Below, one piece after another: positions 15,711-31,600 of a stretch of 64,000 bases of DNA. Below the pieces are notes generated by a model that was not told the DNA's origin, did not search any database, and was given only the letters and a program-made list of their open reading frames with translations. Every line of letters starts with the position of its first letter. The first letter of the stretch is position 1. Made by a program: the position numbers and the translations under genes. This DNA is from Tetrapyrgos nigripes (Eukaryota > Basidiomycota > Agaricomycetes > Agaricales > Campanellaceae). The DNA is taken from the NCBI GenBank assembly GCA_013368315.1, contig JAACJM010000021.1, forward strand, positions 372,001-436,000. Reading direction: 5' to 3'.

Positions 15711-17886
15711 TGTCATGAATCGTCTCCCGCCTATTCATTTCCTTTCTATTCTTTTCCTTTTACTACCCATTTCCCACTTTAACCCCATAAATACTAACCA
15801 TTTCTCATCATCGTCTATAGTTACCATCTCCATAGATCTATGACTCACACTCTTATCTCCTCCGATCCCTATCTCCTATCCCTACCTCCATGGACATTCT
15901 CACTGTCAATCACTCCGTATGATCTAGTACCTTCATCTATCCATATTTGACTCATTATTCTCTCGCCCTCGACATTTCCACATGATACCGTCTATTATTA
16001 CTTACTCTTTCCCATCTGTTCATATTTTACTTATATACCTGTGACCTTTATAACCTATTCCTTAGTTCGTTCACTTCGTCTCTGCTCCGTACTCTTACAG
16101 TGGCCAAAAAAATTGTCCACATGTTTGGCACTTTTGGGAAGATTGCTGATTTAAGAGCTATTGAGCAGAAATCTCAAAACATGGCTGGTGGTAGCAAGAA
16201 AGCTTTTGATTAGAGCTACAATAATCTGTCTGTTTTGTCTTATTTGGCCAAATATCTGTGGAGTTATGATTGATTTAAAACTGTATGTCATTTGGACAAT
16301 TTTTTGAGTTGCCACTTCAAAATCATTATTGCAATAACCTGATGTGTTATACATGATGTCATGGGTGGAGCTGTACAGTAATGAAATGTATACACTACAA
16401 TGATGTCATAGCTGACAGCTGGAGCATACATAGCAACATACAGATGCTCTACAGCCTCTATGAAAATCATGGGGTCCCTCATATCAGCCCAGAAAGACAA
16501 TCTCTACTCTCTCCTCTTAACTGCCTCTCCATCTGCAAAAATTGCAGCTCAGACTGGAGTATGGAAGCCAAGAGTTGCTTTTGTGGCTTAAAAGACAAAT
16601 ACAGACAATGAGAACAATACAGCAGGGTGTCCTAGGAGGCTCTCTACTACTTGTGAAGAGGTTAGATTGGAAAAAAATCCATTCTGGTAAAGCCAGATTG
16701 CTACTCAAGTGGCCTGAAACATCAAGGCTCTTCTTGGACAACCTGTCCCAACCTATAACAGCCAAAACATTCCTGAAAACGTCTTGTGGCGATCTCCAAA
16801 ACACAGAACAAGTGCAAACTTACAGTGACTTGCAGCAAGGCTCACTTGAAGTTTGCACAGATGTAAAAAGACCGGGCTGTAGAAGGCTAGAAGTGGGTTA
16901 TTTTCTCAGATAAGACCAAAACCAATTATTTTGGGGCAAATATGCCCCAGCATGTGTGAGAAAAGAGAGATAAATTCATAGTACAGCAAGATGTGACAGA
17001 AATGATGACATTTGAGAGAGAAAATGACATGATGGGGTAGGGTATGGGGCAACAGTAAGCAGTAAAAATGGTCCAGATGAAGGGGAAGATAGATTGCAAA
17101 CACTATATGACCATCTTAAGTAACAAAATCCTGGAAAGCATTAATAATATGGGAGTTGATCCAGAGGTGGCCATTTTTCAGCTGGGTATTAACTTTCTAA
17201 AGTGCTATATCCAATGGTTTCCTTTATCAGAACATGTCTCTCTACCTATAAAAGCAACACTCTGCTTTCATACTTCAGTCTGAGCTGAAATTTTGATAGA
17301 GGGAGGGGCAGTTTGGAGGAGAGAGTAGAGATTGTCTTTCTGGGCTGATATGAGGGACCCCATGATTTTCATAGAAGCTGTAGAGCATCTGTATGTTGCT
17401 ATGTATGCTCCAGCTGGCAGCTATGACATCATTGTGGTGTATACATCACATTAATGTACAGCTCCACCCATGACATCATGTATAACACATCAGGTTATTG
17501 CAATAATGATTTTGAAGTGGCAACTCAAAAAATTGTCCAAATGACATACAATTTTAAATCAATCATAACTCCACAGATATGTGGCCAAATAAGACAAAAC
17601 AGACAGATTATTGTAGCTCTAATCAAAAGCTTTCTTGCTACCACCAGCCATGTTTTGAGATTTCTGCTCAATAGCTCTTAAATCAGCAATCTTTCCAAAA
17701 GTGCCAAACATGTGGACAATTTTTTTGGCCACTGTATTACGCAGTGTAGAGCCTAGTCAGCTTACTTCTCTCTATCCCTTCACCTCTCTATCTCTTTTGA
17801 CCAATCTATTCTCTTGTGAATCGACTCTCTCTCTCTCTCGTATTGTGTGACTTGGGTGGTTATTGAGTGTAACGACAACCTTGACA
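15711..17886 (+). repeat. gypsy-1 5' LTR, interrupted
   Basis: It starts TGTCATGAATCG and ends CAACCTTGACA. Subtracting the 1,637 bp insertion and one duplicated TA leaves 537 bp, exactly the length of the 3' LTR. U3 differs from gypsy-2, while the downstream half (GTTCACTTCGTCTC.., ACGCAGTGTAGAGCC.., GACTTGGGTGGTTATT) is shared. A TATATA stretch near 16,031 could be the promoter. Confidence 0.92.
16098..17734 (+). mobile_element. Mariner-like non-autonomous element, copy A (1,637 bp)
   Basis: Ends are CAGTGGCCAAAAAAATTGTC and its inverse, flanked by TA (16,096-16,097 and 17,735-17,736). The uninterrupted 3' LTR reads CTCTTATTACGC at this place, so removing the element and one TA restores the target exactly. 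Terminal inverted repeats are about 471 bp (16,098-16,568 and 17,264-17,734). The 695 bp centre holds broken Tc1/mariner transposase pieces: ALLGQPVPT in the DNA-binding part, VIFSDKTKTNYFGANMPQHV around the first catalytic Asp, and MKGKIDCKHYMTIL..PEVAIFQ. The segment that should carry the second Asp after IFQ is replaced by other sequence. It must rely on a transposase supplied elsewhere. Confidence 0.9.
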
Positions 17887-17923
17887 CTTGAACGAACTCC
17901 CATACACCCACCTCACTATTTGA

Positions 17924-18355
17924 GTCCTTTCCCTTATATCTTATTCGCCTCTATTCTCAACTCCTTTCATCCTGTCTACCCCACGTCCCCGAATTCGTAT
18001 CGAACCTCCTGAAACCCCTCGTGACTACGAACGGATTCCATTTCCACTTCCTCGTTACCTCCTGTACTCCGAATACGCGGTCTCTCACGGAAGGAAACTA
18101 CGAACGGATCCTTGGAGTCTCGACCGACACTTCGTTTGCACAAGACGTTGGGTGTGGAAACTTATCTCAGGTGACGTAGTCCTCTCAACGTTCTCGTACA
18201 TAACGGTGAAAGAAGACTTCGATACAGGAGAAACTGTGGTTCAGATTCAAGGACCTTTATTCCTCAAAGAACACGTCGATTACTCCCCATTTGCACCTTC
18301 CCCCGAATACGGCCTAGCATCTTCCTATATACTAGGGCCCAACTACCTTTCATAA
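17924..18355 (+). CDS. gypsy-1 leader ORF upstream of gag, no ATG
   Basis: A 143-codon open frame runs from just after an in-frame TGA (17,921) to TAA at 18,353-18,355, ending 10 bases before the gag ATG. It has no ATG. Its second half, including WKLISGDVVLSTFSYI and a VQIQGPLFLKEH block, matches the equivalent place in gypsy-2 (WKFRPGEVALSRYSHI, VRISGPFYIRDH). Conservation across two diverged copies argues that it is translated, perhaps from a non-AUG start, after splicing, or as an upstream part of Gag. Function unknown. Confidence 0.5.
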   Translation, partial: VLSLISYSPLFSTPFILSTPRPRIRIEPPETPRDYERIPFPLPRYLLYSEYAVSHGRKLRTDPWSLDRHFVCTRRWVWKLISGDVVLSTFSYITVKEDFDTGETVVQIQGPLFLKEHVDYSPFAPSPEYGLASSYILGPNYLS

Positions 18356-18365
18356 AAATTAGTGT

Positions 18366-19877
18366 ATGACTGAGCGACGATCCGCATCTGCAGATCCGAA
18401 ACTCCGTTGTGCTAACCGACCACACGTATTCCACCCCGCATCGAACCAAGACGCTTGCTATATTCCTGAAAACGGCGACGACCCTTGGGTTCCGTGTAAA
18501 GCTCAACCTTGTCTAAACAGATACAACACTCAGCGACTTACCGACGTAGAACTCCCGAATTGGCTACACGTTATAACCCAGCTCCAAGAACTTGCGATTC
18601 AGAAAGCACATCGAAAACCTAGAACCAGATCAAACCAAGGGACTTCTACGCCCACTAACCAACCTTCCGAACCCAACCCAGTACCAGAAACACCTTCCAA
18701 TAACCCACCAGAACCAAACGACCCCACTTCCCCACCTTCTTCACCCATCATTCCATCCGCTGAAGGACCATCCGTAGCCCCTCGTCGCCCCCCTACACCT
18801 CCGTCTCCAGACCCTTCAGACCCAAACGACTCAGTCATGGCTGACACACCTCCTATCGGGTCAAACGGAACTTCTGAACGAGGGAGAAAACCGGAACCCT
18901 TCAACGGAGAACGTAGCGAGGCGAAACGATGGTTGGCCCAGTTTAATAACTATCTACACATGAATCAAGGAAGGTATCCAACCAAAGAAAGTCAGGTTTC
19001 ATTGTTTCTGTCATTCTTCACGGGAGAAAAAGGAGGAGATTGGGCAACACAGAGATTGACGGAACGAGATATAGACGAAGAAGACGAAGAGTTGAAAGCT
19101 ACACCAGATCAACGGAGATGGATAACCTTAAAAGAGATACGTGATCGATTCAAAAGGGACTTCAAACCTTTAGCCTCAGAAGACGTGGCCAGAACAAAAA
19201 TCAAGTTTGCCAGAATGAAGGGGACGGATATCAGCGGCTATAACAGCATTTTTGACACGTATGGAGAAGAGTCTGAATTCGGAGAAGCAGCACTGTTGGA
19301 ATTCTATCAGGACGGGCTGCCACCCAAACTTCGAGAAGCAGTTGGAAGGACGTATCCGAAATGGAAAGACTTCGACCAGTATCAGGAAAGAGCTGTGGAG
19401 CTTCACCTAGAGTGGTTGAAGGAACGAGAGAGACAAGGACGCTGGAAGACTACTTCAACGTCAAAGAGTAGTCCAGGTCCGTCTCAGGGAAGAACGGTAG
19501 CTAGCGTAAATGCGCTCATGGGATCAGGTGCTAACTCGTCTTTCAATCTACCGCCGAAACTGACACCTGATGAAAGGGACCGACTCCGAAAGGCAGGAGC
19601 ATGCTTCGCATGTAGACAAACCGGACACATGAGTAACGAATGCCCAACATTCCCGAGAACGTCGTCTCAGAACACTTCTCGAACCTTCCCTCCTCGCACC
19701 ATTCGAACAGCCGAAACTGCGTCCCCTCCACCGGCAACGGTGGCACAGGCATCCTCTTCTCGAAACACGATCAAGGAGATCTCTGATATGGTGAACAGGG
19801 TTAAAGGATTAGAAGGAGAGGAAAAGGAACAAGCAACCGTCTATTTGAAGGATATTATGTCTAAATTGGATTTTTGA
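18366..19877 (+). CDS. gag: gypsy-1 Gag
   Basis: This 503-codon frame starts at the ATG at 18,366. Residues about 80-155 form a proline-rich low-complexity linker. A retrotransposon gag domain follows (PFNGERSEAKRWLAQFNNYL, then SFFTGEKGGDWATQRLTE). One CCHC zinc knuckle, CFACRQTGHMSNEC, uses C413, C416, H421 and C426. Gag packages the RNA into virus-like particles in the cytoplasm. The frame is intact and ends TTG GAT TTT TGA, where pol overlaps in the -1 frame. Confidence 0.92.
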   Translation: MTERRSASADPKLRCANRPHVFHPASNQDACYIPENGDDPWVPCKAQPCLNRYNTQRLTDVELPNWLHVITQLQELAIQKAHRKPRTRSNQGTSTPTNQPSEPNPVPETPSNNPPEPNDPTSPPSSPIIPSAEGPSVAPRRPPTPPSPDPSDPNDSVMADTPPIGSNGTSERGRKPEPFNGERSEAKRWLAQFNNYLHMNQGRYPTKESQVSLFLSFFTGEKGGDWATQRLTERDIDEEDEELKATPDQRRWITLKEIRDRFKRDFKPLASEDVARTKIKFARMKGTDISGYNSIFDTYGEESEFGEAALLEFYQDGLPPKLREAVGRTYPKWKDFDQYQERAVELHLEWLKERERQGRWKTTSTSKSSPGPSQGRTVASVNALMGSGANSSFNLPPKLTPDERDRLRKAGACFACRQTGHMSNECPTFPRTSSQNTSRTFPPRTIRTAETASPPPATVAQASSSRNTIKEISDMVNRVKGLEGEEKEQATVYLKDIMSKLDF

Positions 19878-22800
19878 ATCGCTCCTCTGTTACGTCGTCA
19901 GCAGGAGTAAAACAGTACACCGGACAGTTAAAGAACAATCGATATAGTGTGTTATACCCCTCTTGTGAGCGATCCTTTCCTTCAGAAATAAGAATGTCAG
20001 CAATCACTCGCAATAAACAGATACCGTCAATCACACTCAAAACTGAACTAATCGGCAAAATTACTGGCAGAAAAATCGACGCAAACGCTCTAATAGACAG
20101 CGGTGCAGAAGGCATAATCATTAATAGTCAATTCGCACAAAGAAATCAACTTACCCTCCTTCCTATCAAAAACCCATTCCCAGTTCGAAACGTTGACGGC
20201 TCTGAAAACACTATGGGGTGGGTACGAGAATACACTATCCAAAATCTTCGTATCTATTCTCGAGACAACAAGGCATACCATGAAGAACAGGCCGAATTCT
20301 ATGTAACGGACATCGGGGACCACGATATAATCCTCGGTACCGACTGGTTGGAAGAACATAACCCAGATATAGACTGGTCGGACTCACGGGTAGACATGAC
20401 TAGATGCCCAGAAACATGTATCACGGCAAAACCTCCCGTTCTCCACTTGAAAACTAAAACCTTAAAACCCATAGTCATCGATCCAAGAACCCATCACAAG
20501 GAGTACCAAGTCAGGTGGATAGAACCAGTTGGACGATTCAAACCAACAGCCCAACCGAAAATTGCAGGGCGACGTCGTCGAATTCCTATTCGATCTTTCC
20601 ACCGAAATTCAGAAGAAACGGCAATCTTTACCGAAGATGACTACGGGAGAGATACGATCCCAGAACGATGGGAACAGGACGTAATGGAAGAATTATTAGG
20701 GAAAGAGGAGAGATTCGATGAAGAAGCATCAGGGACACCGGATCTGAACATCCGTGCGGGTTTTACGAAAGCACAAGAACTCGCAGAGGCAGCTCAGAAC
20801 GTTCAGGTCGATGTACCTCTTAAAGATAAGATTCCTTCGCAGTATCATCAGTTCCTACGAGTCTTTGACAAACAAACCTCAGAAAGATTACCGAAACGTG
20901 GCGAATGGGATCACGCTATCGAATTAAAATCGGACTTTGAACCACGCCCTTGCAAAACATATCCGCTGTCCCCAAATGAACAAAAGGAACTTGACGAATT
21001 CATCGAGGAAAACTTGGAGAAAGGGTACATAAGACCGTCGAAGTCTCCGATGGCAAGTCCCTTCTTCTTTGTAAAAAAGAAAGACGGAAAACTACGACCA
21101 GTACAGGATTACCGTGCCCTAAATAAAGGGACCGTCAAGAACGAATACCCTCTACCGCTTATATCGGAACTCGTAGACAAACTCAAAGGGGCACGAATAT
21201 TTTCCAAAATTGACCTTAGATGGGGATATAACAATGTGCGTATCAAGAAGGGAGATGAATGGAAAGCGGCGTTCAAAACCAACCGCGGTCTCTTCGAACC
21301 AACGGTGATGTTTTTCGGTCTTATGAATTCTCCAGCCACATTCCAAGCAATGATGAACACTCTATTCAAGGACTTGATCGACTCTGGAAAAGTCGTAATC
21401 TATATGGACGATATTCTCATATTCACGGAATCACTAGAAGAACATCGACACATGGTAAAACAAGTACTGGCACGACTCCATGATAACGACTTATACGCTA
21501 AACCGGAAAAATGCACCTTCGAAACCGACTCGGTAGAATTCCTCGGCCTCATCGTGTCACATAACACACTGGCGATGGATCCGGTCAAGGTTGAAGGAGT
21601 AACTAAATGGCCAATCCCACGGAACGTCAAAGACGTACAGTCATTCCTCGGCTTCGGAAATTTTTATCGACGTTTCATACGAGATTTCTCAAAAATCGCA
21701 CGACCACTGTTCGATCTCACGAAAAAGGAACATCCATGGGAATGGTCTGAGGAAGCTCAAAGGGCCTTCCAGGCACTCAAAGATACGTTCACGACCTCAC
21801 CAGTTCTTCTCATGCCTGATCATTCTAAACCTTACCGAGTAGAAGTCGACGCGTCAGACTACGCCACAGGAGGTATCCTGCAACAACAAGGATCGGATGG
21901 CAAATGGCACCCAGTAGCCTACCTGTCAAAGGCGCTGTCCGAAACCGAACGGAATTACGACATCCATGACAAAGAACTGCTAGCAATCATATGAGGACTT
22001 GAAGCCTGGCGGCACTACCTTGAAGGAGGACCACACACCATCGAAATCTTAACTGATCACGACAACCTTAGATATTTCACCTCGGCTCAAAAACTCAGCC
22101 GACGACAAGCAAGGATGGCCTTGTTCTTGACCAGATTCGACTTTACGCTCACCCATAAACCGGGAAATCTGAATCGAAGTGACCCACTCTCTCGAAGATC
22201 GGATCATAAAGAGGGGGTCGAAAACGACAACAAGGACAGGGTCTTACTTGACCCTAGATTCTTCAGAATTCGAGCGACATGACCAGGAACAGTAACCGCA
22301 ATAGGAGATGCGGAATTGAAAAGGCGAATAAAAGAATGTCCGGATAAGGATGCTGAAGTCGTGAGTGCGTTACAAACTATCGTTGACAACGGACCCCGCG
22401 CTTTGGCAAAGAATTTACAGGAATGGAACTATGAAGACGGAATTATCTTGTTCCGAGGGAAGATCTATGTCCCAAACGATCAAAAGCTCAGACGGGACAT
22501 CGTTAAAATGCATCACGACAGCCTTACTGCAGGCCACCTGGGACGATTCAAAACATATGAACTCGTCAGTAGAGAATTCTGGTGGCCCGGTATGTCAGTA
22601 TTCGTTCGCAACTACGTTGAAGGATGCGCTACCTGCCAGTTAACCAAAGCAAACAACCATCCTGCGCATGTACCCTTAATCCCGAACGAAATACCGGAAC
22701 GACCCTTTGGTACCATTACGACCGACTTCATCACGGACCTGCCAGAATGTGACGGCTTCAATGCAATTCACGTCACAGTCGATCGTTCAACAAAAACAGT

Positions 22801-23983
22801 TGTCATCTCCCCATGCAGGAAAGATATTGATAGCGACGGAACAATCGACCTATTGTTCGACAACACTTGGCGACGGTATGGCTTATGGGATAAAATGATA
22901 TCTGACCGCGGACCTCAATTCACAAGCCAAGTGATGAAGGGCATTTACGCTAAGTTAGGTATCACTTCGGCACTTAGTACCGCTTACCATCTGCAGACAG
23001 ACGGCGAAACAGAGAGGTTCAATCAAGAACTGGAACAATACCTTCGAACCTTCTGTAACTATCGCCAAGACGATTGGGTCAAATACCTGCCGTACGCTGA
23101 ATTCTGTCATAATACCCGGGTTCACTCAGCAACTGGGAGATCGCCGTTTGAATTACTCCATGGATTTTTGCCCCGACTATTCCCTTCCATCAACCCAACT
23201 TCACACGTACCAAAAGTCGAAGAACGCCTCCAGAACTTAGATACAATTCGAGAAGAACTAAAAGCAAGTCTGGCGACGGCAGCTGAGCTAATGAGAGAGC
23301 AAAACAAGGACTACCGGAACAAAGGGGTGAAGTTTAAAGTTGGGGATAAAGTGCTGTTGGATGGGAAGAATCTAAAAACGACGAGACCGAAAGCTAAGTT
23401 GGCAAATCGTCGTCACGGACCATTCGAAATCACTGACGTTATCGGTGAAGTCAATTATCGACTCAAATTACCGAATGGTTGGCGCATTCACCCAGTGTTC
23501 CACGCCTCACTCCTATCGCCGTACAAAGAAACCGAAGCCCACGGAGCGAACTACCCGGGAGAACCTGCTGAGCTATTACCCGAAGACAACGAATATGATG
23601 TGGAGGCGATTCTAGATTCAAAACCAACGAGGAACCGACGGGGAGTACAATACCTTGTCAAATGGTTAGATTATGCTGACTCGGAAAATTCATGGGAACC
23701 AGCGTCAGGATTGACGAAGGTGAAGGAGATGATCGAGACCTTCCATCAACAACATCCAGATGCATATCGACCCAAAAACCTGATACGTCCAGGAACAACG
23801 GTGCGTTCACTAGGCGTCGCCATGGAAGACATATGGCGAAGTACTCGTGTGCTTCAAGCGAAAGCACAACTCCGAGGAGAAACATTGTTACGTACCGTAG
23901 GCATCCTATGCCCGCCTTCACACCCCACTCGGCAATCGAACTCAGAATTCTGTCATCACTCATCAATTGCATTCCCTCGTTAA
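19865..23983 (+). pseudogene. pol: gypsy-1 Pol (protease, RT, RNase H, integrase, chromodomain) with two stops
   Basis: The frame opens at 19,865 in the -1 frame to gag. Order: aspartic protease (LIDSGAEGIII, D about 75); RT with YMDDILIF at about residues 510-517; RNase H (VEVDASDYATGG); integrase with a zinc-binding HHCC region ending EGCATCQ; a DDE core (TTDFITDLPE, SDRGPQF, DGETERFNQE); and a C-terminal chromodomain (YLVKWLDYADSENSWEP) that marks a chromovirus. It is broken by TGA at 21,992-21,994 (inside RNase H) and TGA at 22,280-22,282 (between RNase H and integrase). Both lie where arginine is expected or present in the sister copy. Apart from these it is complete. Confidence 0.92.
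19868..19877 (+). promoter_or_regulatory. Candidate -1 ribosomal frameshift site, gag to pol
   Basis: The end of gag reads GGATTTTTGA. The pol frame is open from 19,865 and is -1 relative to gag. Slipping the TTT codon back one base keeps the UUU pairing and lets translation pass the TGA. The same ten bases occur at the same place in gypsy-2 (32,586-32,595, minus). No downstream pseudoknot was worked out. Confidence 0.55.
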
Positions 23984-24152
23984 CGGCGTTTACTGTCAAA
24001 ACCATCCTCGGGGGTGACTCGACCGTCCATTCAAAATCTCCTCCATACAGACAAACGAGTATAAAAGACCCCCCTCCACAACGAAGAAGGAGAACTCAAC
24101 CACATCCTACCAGTTTCACCGAACTCCTCTCTACTACACCCTCATCATTACC
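23885..24152 (+). promoter_or_regulatory. LTR-derived relic and TATA-like box upstream of ORF3
   Basis: The last Pol residues of gypsy-1 (ILCPPS..SNSEFCHHSSIAFPR) match the part of gypsy-2 Pol encoded inside the start of its 3' LTR (VLCPPS..SDHSSIAFPR). So this gypsy-1 internal DNA descends from an older LTR start. Downstream, TATAAAAG at 24,060-24,067 lies 86 bases before the ORF3 ATG, followed by a pyrimidine-rich stretch, as expected of a polymerase II promoter. That it drives ORF3 is inference. Confidence 0.5.
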
Positions 24153-24668
24153 ATGTCAACCACTTCCTCCATCGACACCATCGCGAACGACGCGCTCCCA
24201 ACCAACAGGGGGCGCTGCAACTATGGAACCCGCTCTGGACGTCGATGCAGACTGCCAAAACAACACACAGGACCTCACATTGGGTGTCAACGTTGCACGT
24301 GGGGAGGAGAGGATGGACCAGGACGGTGTAGATTAGGCAGAGGACATAAAGCCCGTTGTGTGGTGCAATGGACGTCGCTGCGGGCGGAACATAGAGGAAA
24401 TCTGGGATGGGGAGGCGCCAGTATCTGGGGGGCAGATAACAGTATACACTGGAACACAGACGATAATGGAGGAGGATGGGGAACGGCGACCAACACAACA
24501 GAATGGGGAAACTTCGACTGGAACGACCCTAGATGGGAGAATGGAGACGGCACTATAGATTGGGACAGATATTGGCCGAGCCAGGGGGATGTAGACAGAC
24601 GGCTCCGCAAGCAATGGGCAGAGCATTGGAAAACTAGCTTGACGAGCTCCGGTGAAAGCTCGTCCTAA
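24153..24668 (+). CDS. gypsy-1 ORF3: tandem zinc-finger-like units plus GW/WG-rich tail
   Basis: This intact 171-codon frame lies between pol and the polypurine tract, with start context ATTACCATGTC. Residues 22-42 have C22, C32, H38, H42 (C-x9-C-x5-H-x3-H). Residues 48-69 have C48, C59, H65, C69 (C-x10-C-x5-H-x3-C) with W50 two residues after C48. From residue 82 the protein is rich in Trp, Gly, Asn and Asp: 13 Trp in 171 residues, including G85-W86-G87, W92-G93, G108-W109-G110 and W118-G119. GW/WG motifs in disordered tails are known Argonaute-binding hooks in silencing proteins and in some viral suppressors. The role here is inference. It is not an envelope: no signal peptide or membrane span. 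The same double finger occurs in copia-1. Confidence 0.8.
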   Translation: MSTTSSIDTIANDALPTNRGRCNYGTRSGRRCRLPKQHTGPHIGCQRCTWGGEDGPGRCRLGRGHKARCVVQWTSLRAEHRGNLGWGGASIWGADNSIHWNTDDNGGGWGTATNTTEWGNFDWNDPRWENGDGTIDWDRYWPSQGDVDRRLRKQWAEHWKTSLTSSGESSS

Positions 24669-24679
24669 AGAGGGGGTAA
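24667..24679 (+). promoter_or_regulatory. gypsy-1 polypurine tract
   Basis: AAAGAGGGGGTAA sits immediately before the 3' LTR and would prime plus-strand DNA synthesis. The same purine run precedes the 3' LTR of gypsy-2. Confidence 0.85.
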
Positions 24680-25216
24680 TGTCATGAATCGTCTCCCGCC
24701 TATTCATTTCCTTTCTATTCTTTTCCTTTTACTACCCATTTCCCACTTTAACCCCATAAATACTAACCATTTCTCATCATCGTCTATAGTTACCATCTCC
24801 ATAGATCTATGACTCACACTCTTATCTCCTCCGATCCCTATCTCCTATCCCTACCTCCATGGACATTCTCACTGTCAATCACTCCGTATGATCTAGTACC
24901 TTCATCTATCCATATTTGACTCATTATTCTCTCGCCCTCGACATTTCCACATGATACCGTCTATTATTACTTACTCTTTCCCATCTGTTCATATTTTACT
25001 TATATACCTGTGACCTTTATAACCTATTCCTTAGTTCGTTCACTTCGTCTCCGCTCCGTACTCTTATTACGCAGTGTAGAGCCTAGTCAGCTTACTTCTC
25101 TCTATCCCTTCACCTCTCTATCTCTTTTGACCAATCTATTCTCTTGTGAATCGACTCTCTCTCTCTCTCGTATTGTGTGACTTGGGTGGTTATTGAGTGT
25201 AACGACAACCTTGACA
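24680..25216 (+). repeat. gypsy-1 3' LTR (537 bp)
   Basis: It runs from TGTCATGAATCG to CAACCTTGACA and ends at the CTACC target duplication. The sequence is uninterrupted, so it serves as the empty-site control for the mariner-like insertion in the 5' LTR. Confidence 0.93.
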
Positions 25217-28125: not shown

Positions 28126-28630
28126 TGTCAAGGTTGTCGATACACTCAAATAACCACCCAAGTCACACACTTAAGGGAGCAGATATAGACAGATATATTG
28201 AGAGAGATGTAAATGAGATGTAGAGAGGAAGAAAGACGAGTAGGCTGACTAGGCTCTACACTGCGTAGTAGTAGTACGGAGCAGAGACGAAGTGAACGAA
28301 CTGGGGAATCAGTTACAAGAGATCTCGAGTATATATGAGAAATGTGAAGGGATGGGAAAAGTAAATAAAATAGAATGGTACCATATGGTTGAGAAAGATA
28401 GGAAGATCGGATCAATCAAGTTAAAGATAGGAAGTATGGATATGAGATAAGAAAGATAGGAAGATTGATCAACAATTATTATAGAGTTTGACAGGTTTTA
28501 TAAAGTTCAAAGTCAGAAGTATAAGATTGGAGGGTTTATCGAGGAAATGCAATGGACGAATGATCAGAGAAAGGGTTCGATAATAAAGTAAAAGAGGAAG
28601 GAGGGCAAAGAACTGTAGCAGTTCGTGACA
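28126..28630 (-). repeat. gypsy-2 3' LTR (505 bp)
   Basis: On the minus strand it begins TGTCACGAACTGC at 28,630 and ends TCGACAACCTTGACA at 28,126. The first 95 bases encode the last residues of Pol. The upstream half differs from gypsy-1 U3, while the downstream half is shared with it. Confidence 0.9.
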
Positions 28631-31600
28631 TTACCCCCTCTTTAAGCTGTGCTTTTGCCTGGAGCACACGCGTACTTTTCCAAATATCCACAAAACTAAT
28701 TCCCATTGACCATACTGTTGATCCTAATTGTATGAGGTTTGGTGGACAATATGCATCTGGATGTTGTCGATGGAAGGTTTCGATCATATCTTTCAACTTT
28801 GTCAACCCGGATGCTGGTTCCCATGAATTTTCTGAGTCTGCATAGTCTAACCATTTGACCAAATATTGTACTCCCTGCTGATTCCTCGTTGGTTTCGAAT
28901 CCAAGATTGCTTCGACATCATATTCATTGTCTTCTGGTAGCAATTCGGCTGGTTCTCCTGGGTAGTTTATGCCATGGGCTTCTGTTTCTTTGTATGGTGA
29001 TAGAAGCGAAGCATGAAAGACCGGATGGATCCACCAGGTGGTCGGTAGTTTGAGACAATAATTAACTGTGCCGACTACATCAGTGATCTTGAATGGGCCA
29101 TGCCGGTGGTTTGCCAACTTAGCTTTTGGCCTCGTGGTTTTTAAGTTCTTTCTGTCTAGTAGTACCTTATCCCCCACTTTGAATTTTACCCCTTCCTTTA
29201 CATGATCCATATGTTGTCTCTTCATCAACTCTGCAGCGGTCGTCAGACTTGCTTTCAATTCCTCCCATAGTGCTTCTAAGTTTTGAAGATGTTCTTTGAC
29301 TTTTGGGATGTGTGAGGTAGGGTTGATTGAAGGAAAGAGTCGAGGGAGGTATCCATGGAGTAATTCAAAGGGTGACTTTCTGGTAGCGGAGTGCACTCGA
29401 GCGTTATGGCAGAATTCTGCGTAAGGCAGATATTTGACCCAATCGTCTTGTCGATAGTTGCAAAAGGTTCGTAGATACTGTTCGAGCTCTTGGTTGAACC
29501 TTTTGGTCTCTCCATCTGTTTGTGGGTGATAAGGTGTACTAAGTGCTGAGGTAATACCTAACTTAGTGTATATCCCCTTCATAACCTGACTCGCAAATTG
29601 AGGTCCTCTGTCCGATATCATCTTATCCCAAAGACCATAACGTCGCCAAGTGTTATTAAATAGCACGTCAATTGTCCCATCACTGTCGATATCCTTCTGA
29701 CATGGTGAAATCACTACAGTCTTGGTCGATCGGTCTACTGTTACGTGGATCACATTGAAACCTTCACATTCTGGAAGGTCCGTAATGAAGTCGGTTGTGA
29801 TAGTACCAAAAGGTCTTTCTGGTGTTTCGTTCAGAATTAATGGTACATGTGATGGATGATTTTGTGCCTTGGTCAATTGGCAAGTAGCACATCCTTCAAC
29901 ATAATCACAGACAAATACTGACATACCAGGCCACCAGAATTCTCTACTTGTCAGTTCGTAGGTCTTAAACTGGCCTGGGTGTCCTGCATTTTGACTATGT
30001 CTCTCCGTAGTTGCTGGTTGTTTGGGACGTAGATCTTTCCTCAGAACAATATAATCCCATCTTCGTAGTTCCATTCCTGTAAGTTCTTGACCAGTGAGCG
30101 TGGACCATTATTTAAGATGACCTGTAAGGCACTCATGACCTTGACGTCCCTTTTTGGACATTCCTTAATATGTCTTCTCAATTCAACATCCCCTATTGCA
30201 GCTACTGCTCCTGGTCTTGTGGCTCGAATTCTAAAGAATTTGGGGTTGAGCAACACTCTGTCCTTGTTGTTGTTCTCAACCCCCTCTTTATGATCTGGTC
30301 TTTGCAAGAGGGGGTCACTTCGATTGAGACTTCCGGGTTTATGGATTAATGTGAAGTCGAATCTGGTTAGGAATAAAGCCATCCTTGCTTGTCGTCGGCT
30401 GAGTTTCTGAGTGGTAGTGAAGTATTTCAAGTTCTCATGATCAGTGAGGATTTTGATAGTATGTGGACCTCCTTCAAGGTAGTGTCGCCAGGCTTCTAAT
30501 CCACATATAATTGCCAACAATTCTTTATCATGAATGTCATAGTTATGTTCAGTTTCCGATAAAGATTTCGATAGATAAGCAACTGGGTGCCATTTGTTGT
30601 CAGGTCCTTTTTGTTGTAAAATACCTCCTGTGGCGTAATCCGAAGCATCGACCTCTACTCGGTACAGTTTAGAATGATCAGGCATTAAGAGAACTGGTAA
30701 AGACATGAACACATCTTTGAGTGCCTGAAAGGCTCTTTCTGTTTCATCTGACCATTTCCATGGTTTGTCCTTCTTCATAAGATCGAAGAGTGGTCGGGCA
30801 ACTTTAGAAAAGTCATGTATGAAATGATGGTAGAAATTTCTGAACCCTAAAAATGATTGAACATCCTTGATATTTCATGGTGTTGGCCATTTAGTAACAC
30901 CTTTGACTTTGACTGGGTCCATAGCCAGTGTATTGTGGGAGACAATGAGCCCTAGGAATTCTACCAAACTGGTTTCGAAGGTACATTTCTCTGGCTTAGC
31001 ATAAAGATCGTTCTCTTGAAGTCGCGCGAGCACTTGTTTGACCAGATGTTGATGTTCTTCTGGGGTTTCCGTGAAGATCAAGATGTCATCCATGTATATT
31101 ACCACTTTTCCAGAATCAATAAGATCCTTGAAAAGAGTATTCATCATTGCCTGGAACGTCGCAGGAGAGTTCATAAGACCGAAAAACATCACCGTTGGCT
31201 CAAAAAGTCCTCTATTCATCTTGAATGCTGCTTTCCACTCATCTCCTTCTTTATTCGTACATTATTATATCCCCATTGAAGGTCGATTTTCGAAAAGACT
31301 CATGCTCCTTTGAGTTTATTGACTAGTTCCGATATGAGTGGTAAAGGATATTCGTTCTTGATGGTTCCTTTATTTAATGCTCAATAGTCCTGCACAGGGC
31401 ATAGTTTCCTGTCTTTCTTTTTGACAAAGAAGAAAGGACTTGCCATAGGAGACTTCGACGGTCTAATGTATTCCTTCTCCAAATTTTCCTTAATAAAATT
31501 ATCAAGCTCTTCGTTTGGAGATAAGGGATAGGTTTTGCAATGGCATGGTATGAAGTCCAGTTTCAATTCGATAGTGTGATCCCATTCTCCACGTTTCGGT

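Follow-up and report, generated by a model that had tools for sequence, protein, structure and literature searches.

A gypsy-type retrotransposon in the 64,000-nucleotide stretch of DNA analysed here (the window) carries an additional reading frame, ORF3, between pol and its 3' LTR. The locus raises the question of whether ORF3 is a gene, how the element came by it, and what its protein may do. A first-pass annotation of the same DNA had proposed a retrotransposon-borne accessory gene with tandem zinc-finger-like units and Argonaute-hook-like GW/WG motifs. Few accessory genes of fungal retrotransposons have been described, and no description of a protein or a layout like that of ORF3 was found in the literature searched, most subscription journals lying outside it; the accessible parts of PMC3248453, PMC3411680, and PMC7175516 hold nothing resembling ORF3. 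If the ORF3 protein binds Argonaute, the transposon would possess a counter-defence of its own against RNA silencing. Should it not bind Argonaute, the locus would still illustrate a route by which a retrotransposon can gain a gene and a promoter behind an old LTR front, the new gene being followed by another polypurine tract and LTR. A new observation made here is that deep-branching copies of the element have, ahead of ORF3, a further polypurine tract and LTR start in a decayed state.

The host element and its additional reading frame

The element spans positions 15711–25216 of the window on the plus strand, with the target duplication CTACC at both flanks. Its 5' LTR (15711–17886, with CTACC on its left) is split at 16098–17734 by another transposon, and is followed, all on the plus strand, by gag (18366–19877, containing a zf-CCHC match with an E-value of 2.4e-05), pol (19994–23983, encoding protease, RT, RNase H, integrase, and a chromodomain), ORF3 (24153–24668, encoding an accessory protein of 171 aa), the working polypurine tract (24667–24679, overlapping the ORF3 stop codon), and the 3' LTR (24680–25216, with CTACC directly after it). 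The protease-RT-RNase H-integrase order, the chromodomain, the LTRs, and the target duplication place the element among the chromodomain Gypsy elements (chromoviruses). In the window copy, the ATG of ORF3 lies 170 bases past the integrase stop; the intact frame of 171 codons that had been annotated between pol and the 3' LTR was confirmed in its coordinates, start context, and placement. The two LTRs differ by one mismatch in ~540 aligned bases, which, together with the flanking CTACC, indicates that the element is young and bears out the age given to it by the first-pass annotation. Young as it is, the element is not intact: in the window copy, the pol frame is interrupted at 21992 and 22280 by in-frame stops. 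Elsewhere in the genome, 14 of the 150 integrase-tail matches listed fall in a frame that stays open for 1,372 codons. The transposon inside the 5' LTR is 1,637 bp long and is flanked by TA, with terminal repeats that open with CAGTGGCCAAAAAAATTGTCCAC and inverted arms of 523 bases that are 93% complementary.

ORF3 recurs across the genome and evolves under selection

Homologs of ORF3 were searched for across the genome (98.5 Mb, 587 contigs). At the DNA level, all 40 of the candidates scored, out of 185 candidates, were matches. At the protein level, there were at least 150 matches genome-wide (150 scored of 529 candidates), with identity extending down to ~60%, and 45 of the 150 protein matches listed contained at least one stop. 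An 80-residue integrase tail was employed as an independent probe, with 150 places scored of 540 candidates and totals that are lower bounds. A match to ORF3 was present within 1.5 kb downstream and on the same strand at no fewer than 135 of the 150 integrase tails, with a median gap of 174 bases, and among the 100 best-scoring tails at least 96 have a downstream ORF3; some of the 15 tails without a listed ORF3 may be false misses. ORF3 is thus a sense frame between pol and the 3' LTR that is selected and present in most copies, as expected of a conserved additional ORF, and its standing as an accessory gene of the element was upheld.

The selection acting on ORF3 was assessed in 70 fetched copies, the first 30 of which were taken by score alone, while 40 divergent ones were hand-chosen and mostly free of stops. 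Alignment included 63 of these copies; the other 7 were excluded as being shorter than 150 aa owing to stops. Pairwise Nei-Gojobori dN/dS among the 63 copies was 0.16–0.33 across dS bins, the median declining from 0.327 at dS 0.02–0.05 (4 pairs) to 0.162 at dS 0.8–2 (935 pairs). By region, dN/dS was 0.33 for residues 1–20, 0.11 for residues 21–72, 0.16 for residues 73–120, and 0.20 for residues 121–171, and the minor-allele fractions at codon positions 1, 2, and 3 were 0.09, 0.08, and 0.24, respectively. When the same 70 copies were binned by integrase dS, the ratio was 0.08–0.14 for integrase and 0.17–0.20 for ORF3, indicating that ORF3 is constrained somewhat more loosely than integrase, yet clearly constrained. 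Within the unselected 30 copies, stops were present in ORF3 in 4 copies (4 in 5,129 codons) and in integrase in 10 copies (17 in 12,794 codons). The other five frames of the 63 aligned copies contained 1,489 stops, a figure that serves for contrast only, as the copies were retained for an open ORF3 frame.

ORF3 is a real gene under selection. A chance frame was rejected in view of the dN/dS ratios, the third-position bias, and the linkage to at least 135 of 150 integrase tails. The same linkage, and dN/dS far below 1 at all depths, also make it very unlikely that ORF3 is a passenger, that is, a fragment of a host gene acquired by transduction and useless to the element, although such an origin would agree with the absence of any relatives found for ORF3. 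As judged among copies of one genome, dN/dS is well below 1 rather than near it, and the frame and the Cys/His and Trp positions that the first-pass annotation had singled out are conserved.

Probable addition of ORF3 behind an old LTR front

The window also contains a sister element on the minus strand, which had been reported to lack ORF3 and was confirmed to do so. In this sister (28127–28643, minus strand), the polypurine tract occupies 28643–28631 and the LTR runs from 28630; the integrase stop, at 28536, falls within the LTR, and integrase codons contain both its polypurine tract (AAAGAGGGGGTAA) and its LTR start (TGTCACGAAC). In five more sister-type copies, this tract and TGTCA occur at the corresponding site, with the integrase frame continuing through in 4 of the 6; the sister lineage, which lacks ORF3, is abundant. 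Copies of the ORF3 lineage share this integrase tail, but have the working tract and LTR start ~800 bases further on, beyond ORF3. At 23873–23893 (plus strand), the window element has the codons equivalent to those that hold the sister lineage's polypurine tract and LTR start; both features are decayed in this copy and can be recognised in deep-branching ones.

For 65 copies, each copy's own tract-plus-LTR start was compared with the region upstream of ORF3, using 200 shuffles. Among the 12 deepest-branching copies (L066, L067, and L069 to L078), 9 had a second tract and LTR-start match at the integrase-tail codons (0 of 200 shuffles), the best LTR-start match scoring 35 points in L070; two of the remaining deep copies were at p=0.05, and L072 was without a match. 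No second match stood out in the other 53 of the 65 copies scored, including the window element (gypsy-1). Comparison of the spacer upstream of ORF3 with the U3 of the sister's LTR gave p<=0.023 in 4 of 15 copies and 0.053 to 0.863 in the others, a weak homology that suggests that the rest of the spacer may have descended from the old U3.

ORF3 is probably a later addition, placed behind the front of an old LTR. On the simplest account, the LTR of the ancestor would have overlapped the end of integrase, as it does in the present sister; ORF3, a new polypurine tract, and a new LTR would have been gained beyond the old LTR front, and the inner copy of the tract and LTR start would later have decayed, persisting as integrase codons. 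The history could also be reversed, with ORF3 being ancestral, the sister having lost it, and the sister's polypurine tract having arisen anew inside integrase, since the direction of gain or loss was judged within these two lineages. However, this requires an independent tract and LTR start in the same codons as in the deep ORF3 copies, and we regard it as decidedly unlikely.

One copy, L048, is a mosaic in which a distant integrase (67% protein and ~70% DNA identity) is joined to the ORF3 and LTR of this lineage, the DNA identity of ORF3 and LTR being 80% to the window copy and 86% to L050. The L048 integrase has its own end, soon after the chromodomain, and carries a stop, and the TATA box described below is not recognisable in this copy. 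The mosaic indicates that recombination can move ORF3 into another lineage. Over 2,415 pairs, the correlation between integrase identity and ORF3 identity was only 0.59.

A putative internal promoter upstream of ORF3

Conservation of the noncoding spacer was scored on 23 copies less than 88% alike, drawn from 65. Conservation averaged 0.73 over the spacer (sd 0.12); it was highest, at 0.95, in the 8-base block CTGTCAAA (23993–24000, plus strand; position -160) and reached 0.94 in the block TATAAAAG (24060–24067, plus strand; position -93). The latter is a TATA box located 93 bases upstream of the ORF3 ATG and presumed to be the core of an internal promoter; the TATA-type box that had been annotated upstream of ORF3 is therefore present as described and conserved among copies. 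In a second set of 23 copies, TATA[AT]A occurred at -78 to -96 in 19 and was altered in 4. With this conserved TATA box, ORF3 probably has a transcript separate from that of gag-pol.

The motif CTGTCAA is present at 23993–23999 in the spacer, at 24872–24878 in the 3' LTR, and at 28488–28494 in the LTR of the sister. It is found in the spacer and LTR of many copies and is absent from some. As a candidate shared control element the motif was rejected, since it comprises 7 bases only and is not over-represented in the window (17 occurrences vs 14.3 expected). The front part of the LTR (24680–25216 and 22 other copies) shows unusually strong conservation among divergent copies, exceeding that of the spacer.

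A basic Cys/His module and an acidic, Trp-rich tail

Residues 22–69 of ORF3 (24216–24359, plus strand) contain nine candidate ligands, of which C22, C32, H42, C45, C59, H65, and C69 are kept in 63 of 63 copies, and H38 and C48 in 62 of 63. The ligand codons vary at the third base, indicating that the constraint acts on the protein. The two tandem Cys/His units of the first-pass annotation are conserved, with the amendment that there are nine candidate ligands rather than eight, C45 being present besides C48. These could form two sites, one comprising C22-C32-H38-H42 and the other C45 or C48 together with C59-H65-C69. Residues 21–72 are basic (12 K/R vs 2 D/E), and zinc and nucleic-acid binding are putative activities of the module. 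A retroviral-type zinc knuckle (C-x2-C-x4-H-x4-C) was considered and rejected, as the spacing in ORF3 differs and a Pfam zf-CCHC match was obtained for 0 of 21 members. AlphaFold2 on 21 ORF3 sequences gave a pLDDT of 33.3 and a pTM of 0.25 over the whole protein, with no usable model.

The module is followed on the plus strand by an acidic, Trp-rich tail (residues 73–145; 24369–24587), in which W86, W92, W109, and W118 are each next to Gly, and by a C-terminal stretch (residues 146–171; 24588–24665) in which W155 and W159 are conserved and the end is Ser-rich. The GW/WG motifs were at the annotated tail sites and are conserved, and one more WG lies at residues 50–51, within the zinc part; the 13 Trp attributed to the tail proved to be those of the entire protein, of which the tail has 12. 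The G-flanked tail Trp are retained in 62–63 of 63 copies together with their neighbouring Gly, whose codons show third-base changes, and W86 and W92 are spaced by 6 residues only. The other tail Trp were kept in fewer of the 63 copies (W73 in 51, W100 in 31, W123 in 51, W128 in 50, W137 in 47, and W141 in 58), the losses among these six occurring partly via deletions. W155 and W159, which lie outside GW/WG, were kept in 62 and 63 of 63 copies, respectively. In the window copy, the number of G-flanked Trp in the tail is at composition level (4 vs 3.14 in shuffles, p=0.39), so that the count is no argument there, while the positions of the motifs are conserved. Across 15 copies examined, there were 4–6 G-flanked Trp per copy, with shuffle p-values of 0.008–0.39 and p<=0.05 in 6 of the 15. 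In 6 copies examined, 39-residue windows had a net charge of -7 to -10 and contained 7–9 W/F/Y/L.

Plant elements with additional ORFs downstream of pol are known, and many third ORFs in that position, ahead of the 3' LTR, have been proposed to be env-like (PMC7264820). The additional ORFs described in the accessible part of that source resemble ORF3 in occupying the same place, in sense orientation, and in being retained in most copies of a family. Position and orientation thus match an env-like protein, but ORF3 is without a hydrophobic segment, the highest 19-residue Kyte-Doolittle mean being -0.19, and we consider this identity extremely improbable. Furthermore, the ORFs in the accessible part of PMC7264820 are mainly env-like or antisense, whereas ORF3 combines a Cys/His module with a Trp-rich tail and is preceded by a decayed LTR start.

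Relatives of the protein were sought in a set of 5.8 billion proteins, in which a single ORF3 sequence gave 39 candidates, none at E<=1, a 21-member ORF3 alignment gave 849 candidates, again none of them a hit, and residues 18–95 of a divergent copy gave no candidate. Among viral contigs, there were 14 pattern matches to ORF3, none of which was confirmed, and PDB contained no relative detectable by sequence or by profile. Pfam searches with the window copy and 21 members returned chance-level matches only, the best two, with E-values of 0.2 and 0.27, occurring in 2 of 21 members each. With no relative and no predicted structure, the function of ORF3 is argued from composition and conservation.

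Proposed function of ORF3 and comparable systems

We propose that the ORF3 protein would be a trans-acting adapter, in which the basic, putatively zinc-binding module would hold nucleic acid and the G-flanked Trp of the presumably flexible tail would dock a host protein. The host partner thought likeliest is Argonaute, in which case ORF3 would blunt or redirect silencing of the element. Argonaute is favoured because the G-flanked Trp outlast most of the others and because the genome has Piwi-domain matches (on 10 contigs) and RNA-dependent RNA polymerase (RdRP) matches (on 8). It is disfavoured because the enrichment in GW/WG is modest, W155 and W159 are equally conserved, W86 and W92 are closely spaced, and the tail is activation-domain-like. 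The Argonaute-hook reading of ORF3 is a possible one. Our tentative explanation, to which we give clearly less than an even chance, is that ORF3 encodes an accessory adapter that was added behind an old LTR front, has Argonaute as its likeliest partner, and blunts or redirects silencing. A more specific version, in which ORF3 would be a silencing suppressor with an Argonaute-docking tail, a new zinc module, and its own promoter behind a fossil LTR, the whole cassette being passed between lineages, appears unlikely.

GW182, Tas3, and Gwo1 are Argonaute-hook (GW/WG) proteins. The P1 protein of wheat streak mosaic virus belongs to the same group (PMC6563293). ORF3 resembles the Argonaute-hook proteins in having conserved G-flanked Trp in a flexible-looking tail, and differs from them in the attached Cys/His module and in the GW/WG count of the window copy, which is not above composition.

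The evidence accommodates a transcription activator almost as readily as an Argonaute hook. By analogy with foamy virus Tas, the zinc module would bind the LTR and the internal promoter, while recruitment of the transcription machinery would fall to the acidic aromatic tail. Consistent with this are the pairing of a basic zinc part (12 K/R, 2 D/E) with an acidic tail, the strongly negative and aromatic/Leu-bearing tail windows of the 6 copies examined, the conserved TATA box that ORF3 has of its own, and the occurrence of CTGTCAA in both spacer and LTR in many copies. By contrast, Trp beside D or R vary while Trp beside G persist, and CTGTCAA is a short motif of 7 bases that shows no over-representation in the window; an activator is, on this evidence, a little less probable than the Argonaute-docking adapter. 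According to the accessible parts of PMC8670036 and PMC4929722, Tas, like ORF3, is an accessory gene after pol, and it has a second promoter where that of ORF3 is putative; unlike in the Tas system, the promoter of ORF3 may be descended from an old LTR.

The small basic Cys/His module and presumably flexible tail would also suit an RNA-binding replication helper, which would act in the export, protection, or packaging of the genomic RNA of the element. A retrotransposon protein required for genomic RNA export, CERV of Cer1, has been described (PMC10309623, accessible part). However, gag retains its own zinc knuckle and the sister lineage is abundant without ORF3, and we view a helper of this kind as improbable.

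Two further additional ORFs invite comparison. The 'add. ORF' of PMC2864245 is likewise an extra frame in a fungal chromodomain Gypsy element; in the accessible part of that source it is named in a figure legend only, with neither a sequence nor a function given. In sunflower Tekay chromoviruses, an additional ORF at the 5' end is kept in 500 of 523 elements and has a proposed link to RNA silencing (PMC11728184). Like ORF3, it is a conserved additional ORF in a chromovirus; unlike ORF3, it lies at the 5' end and encodes a proline-rich protein of ~400 aa, for which the accessible part of PMC11728184 describes no Cys/His module.
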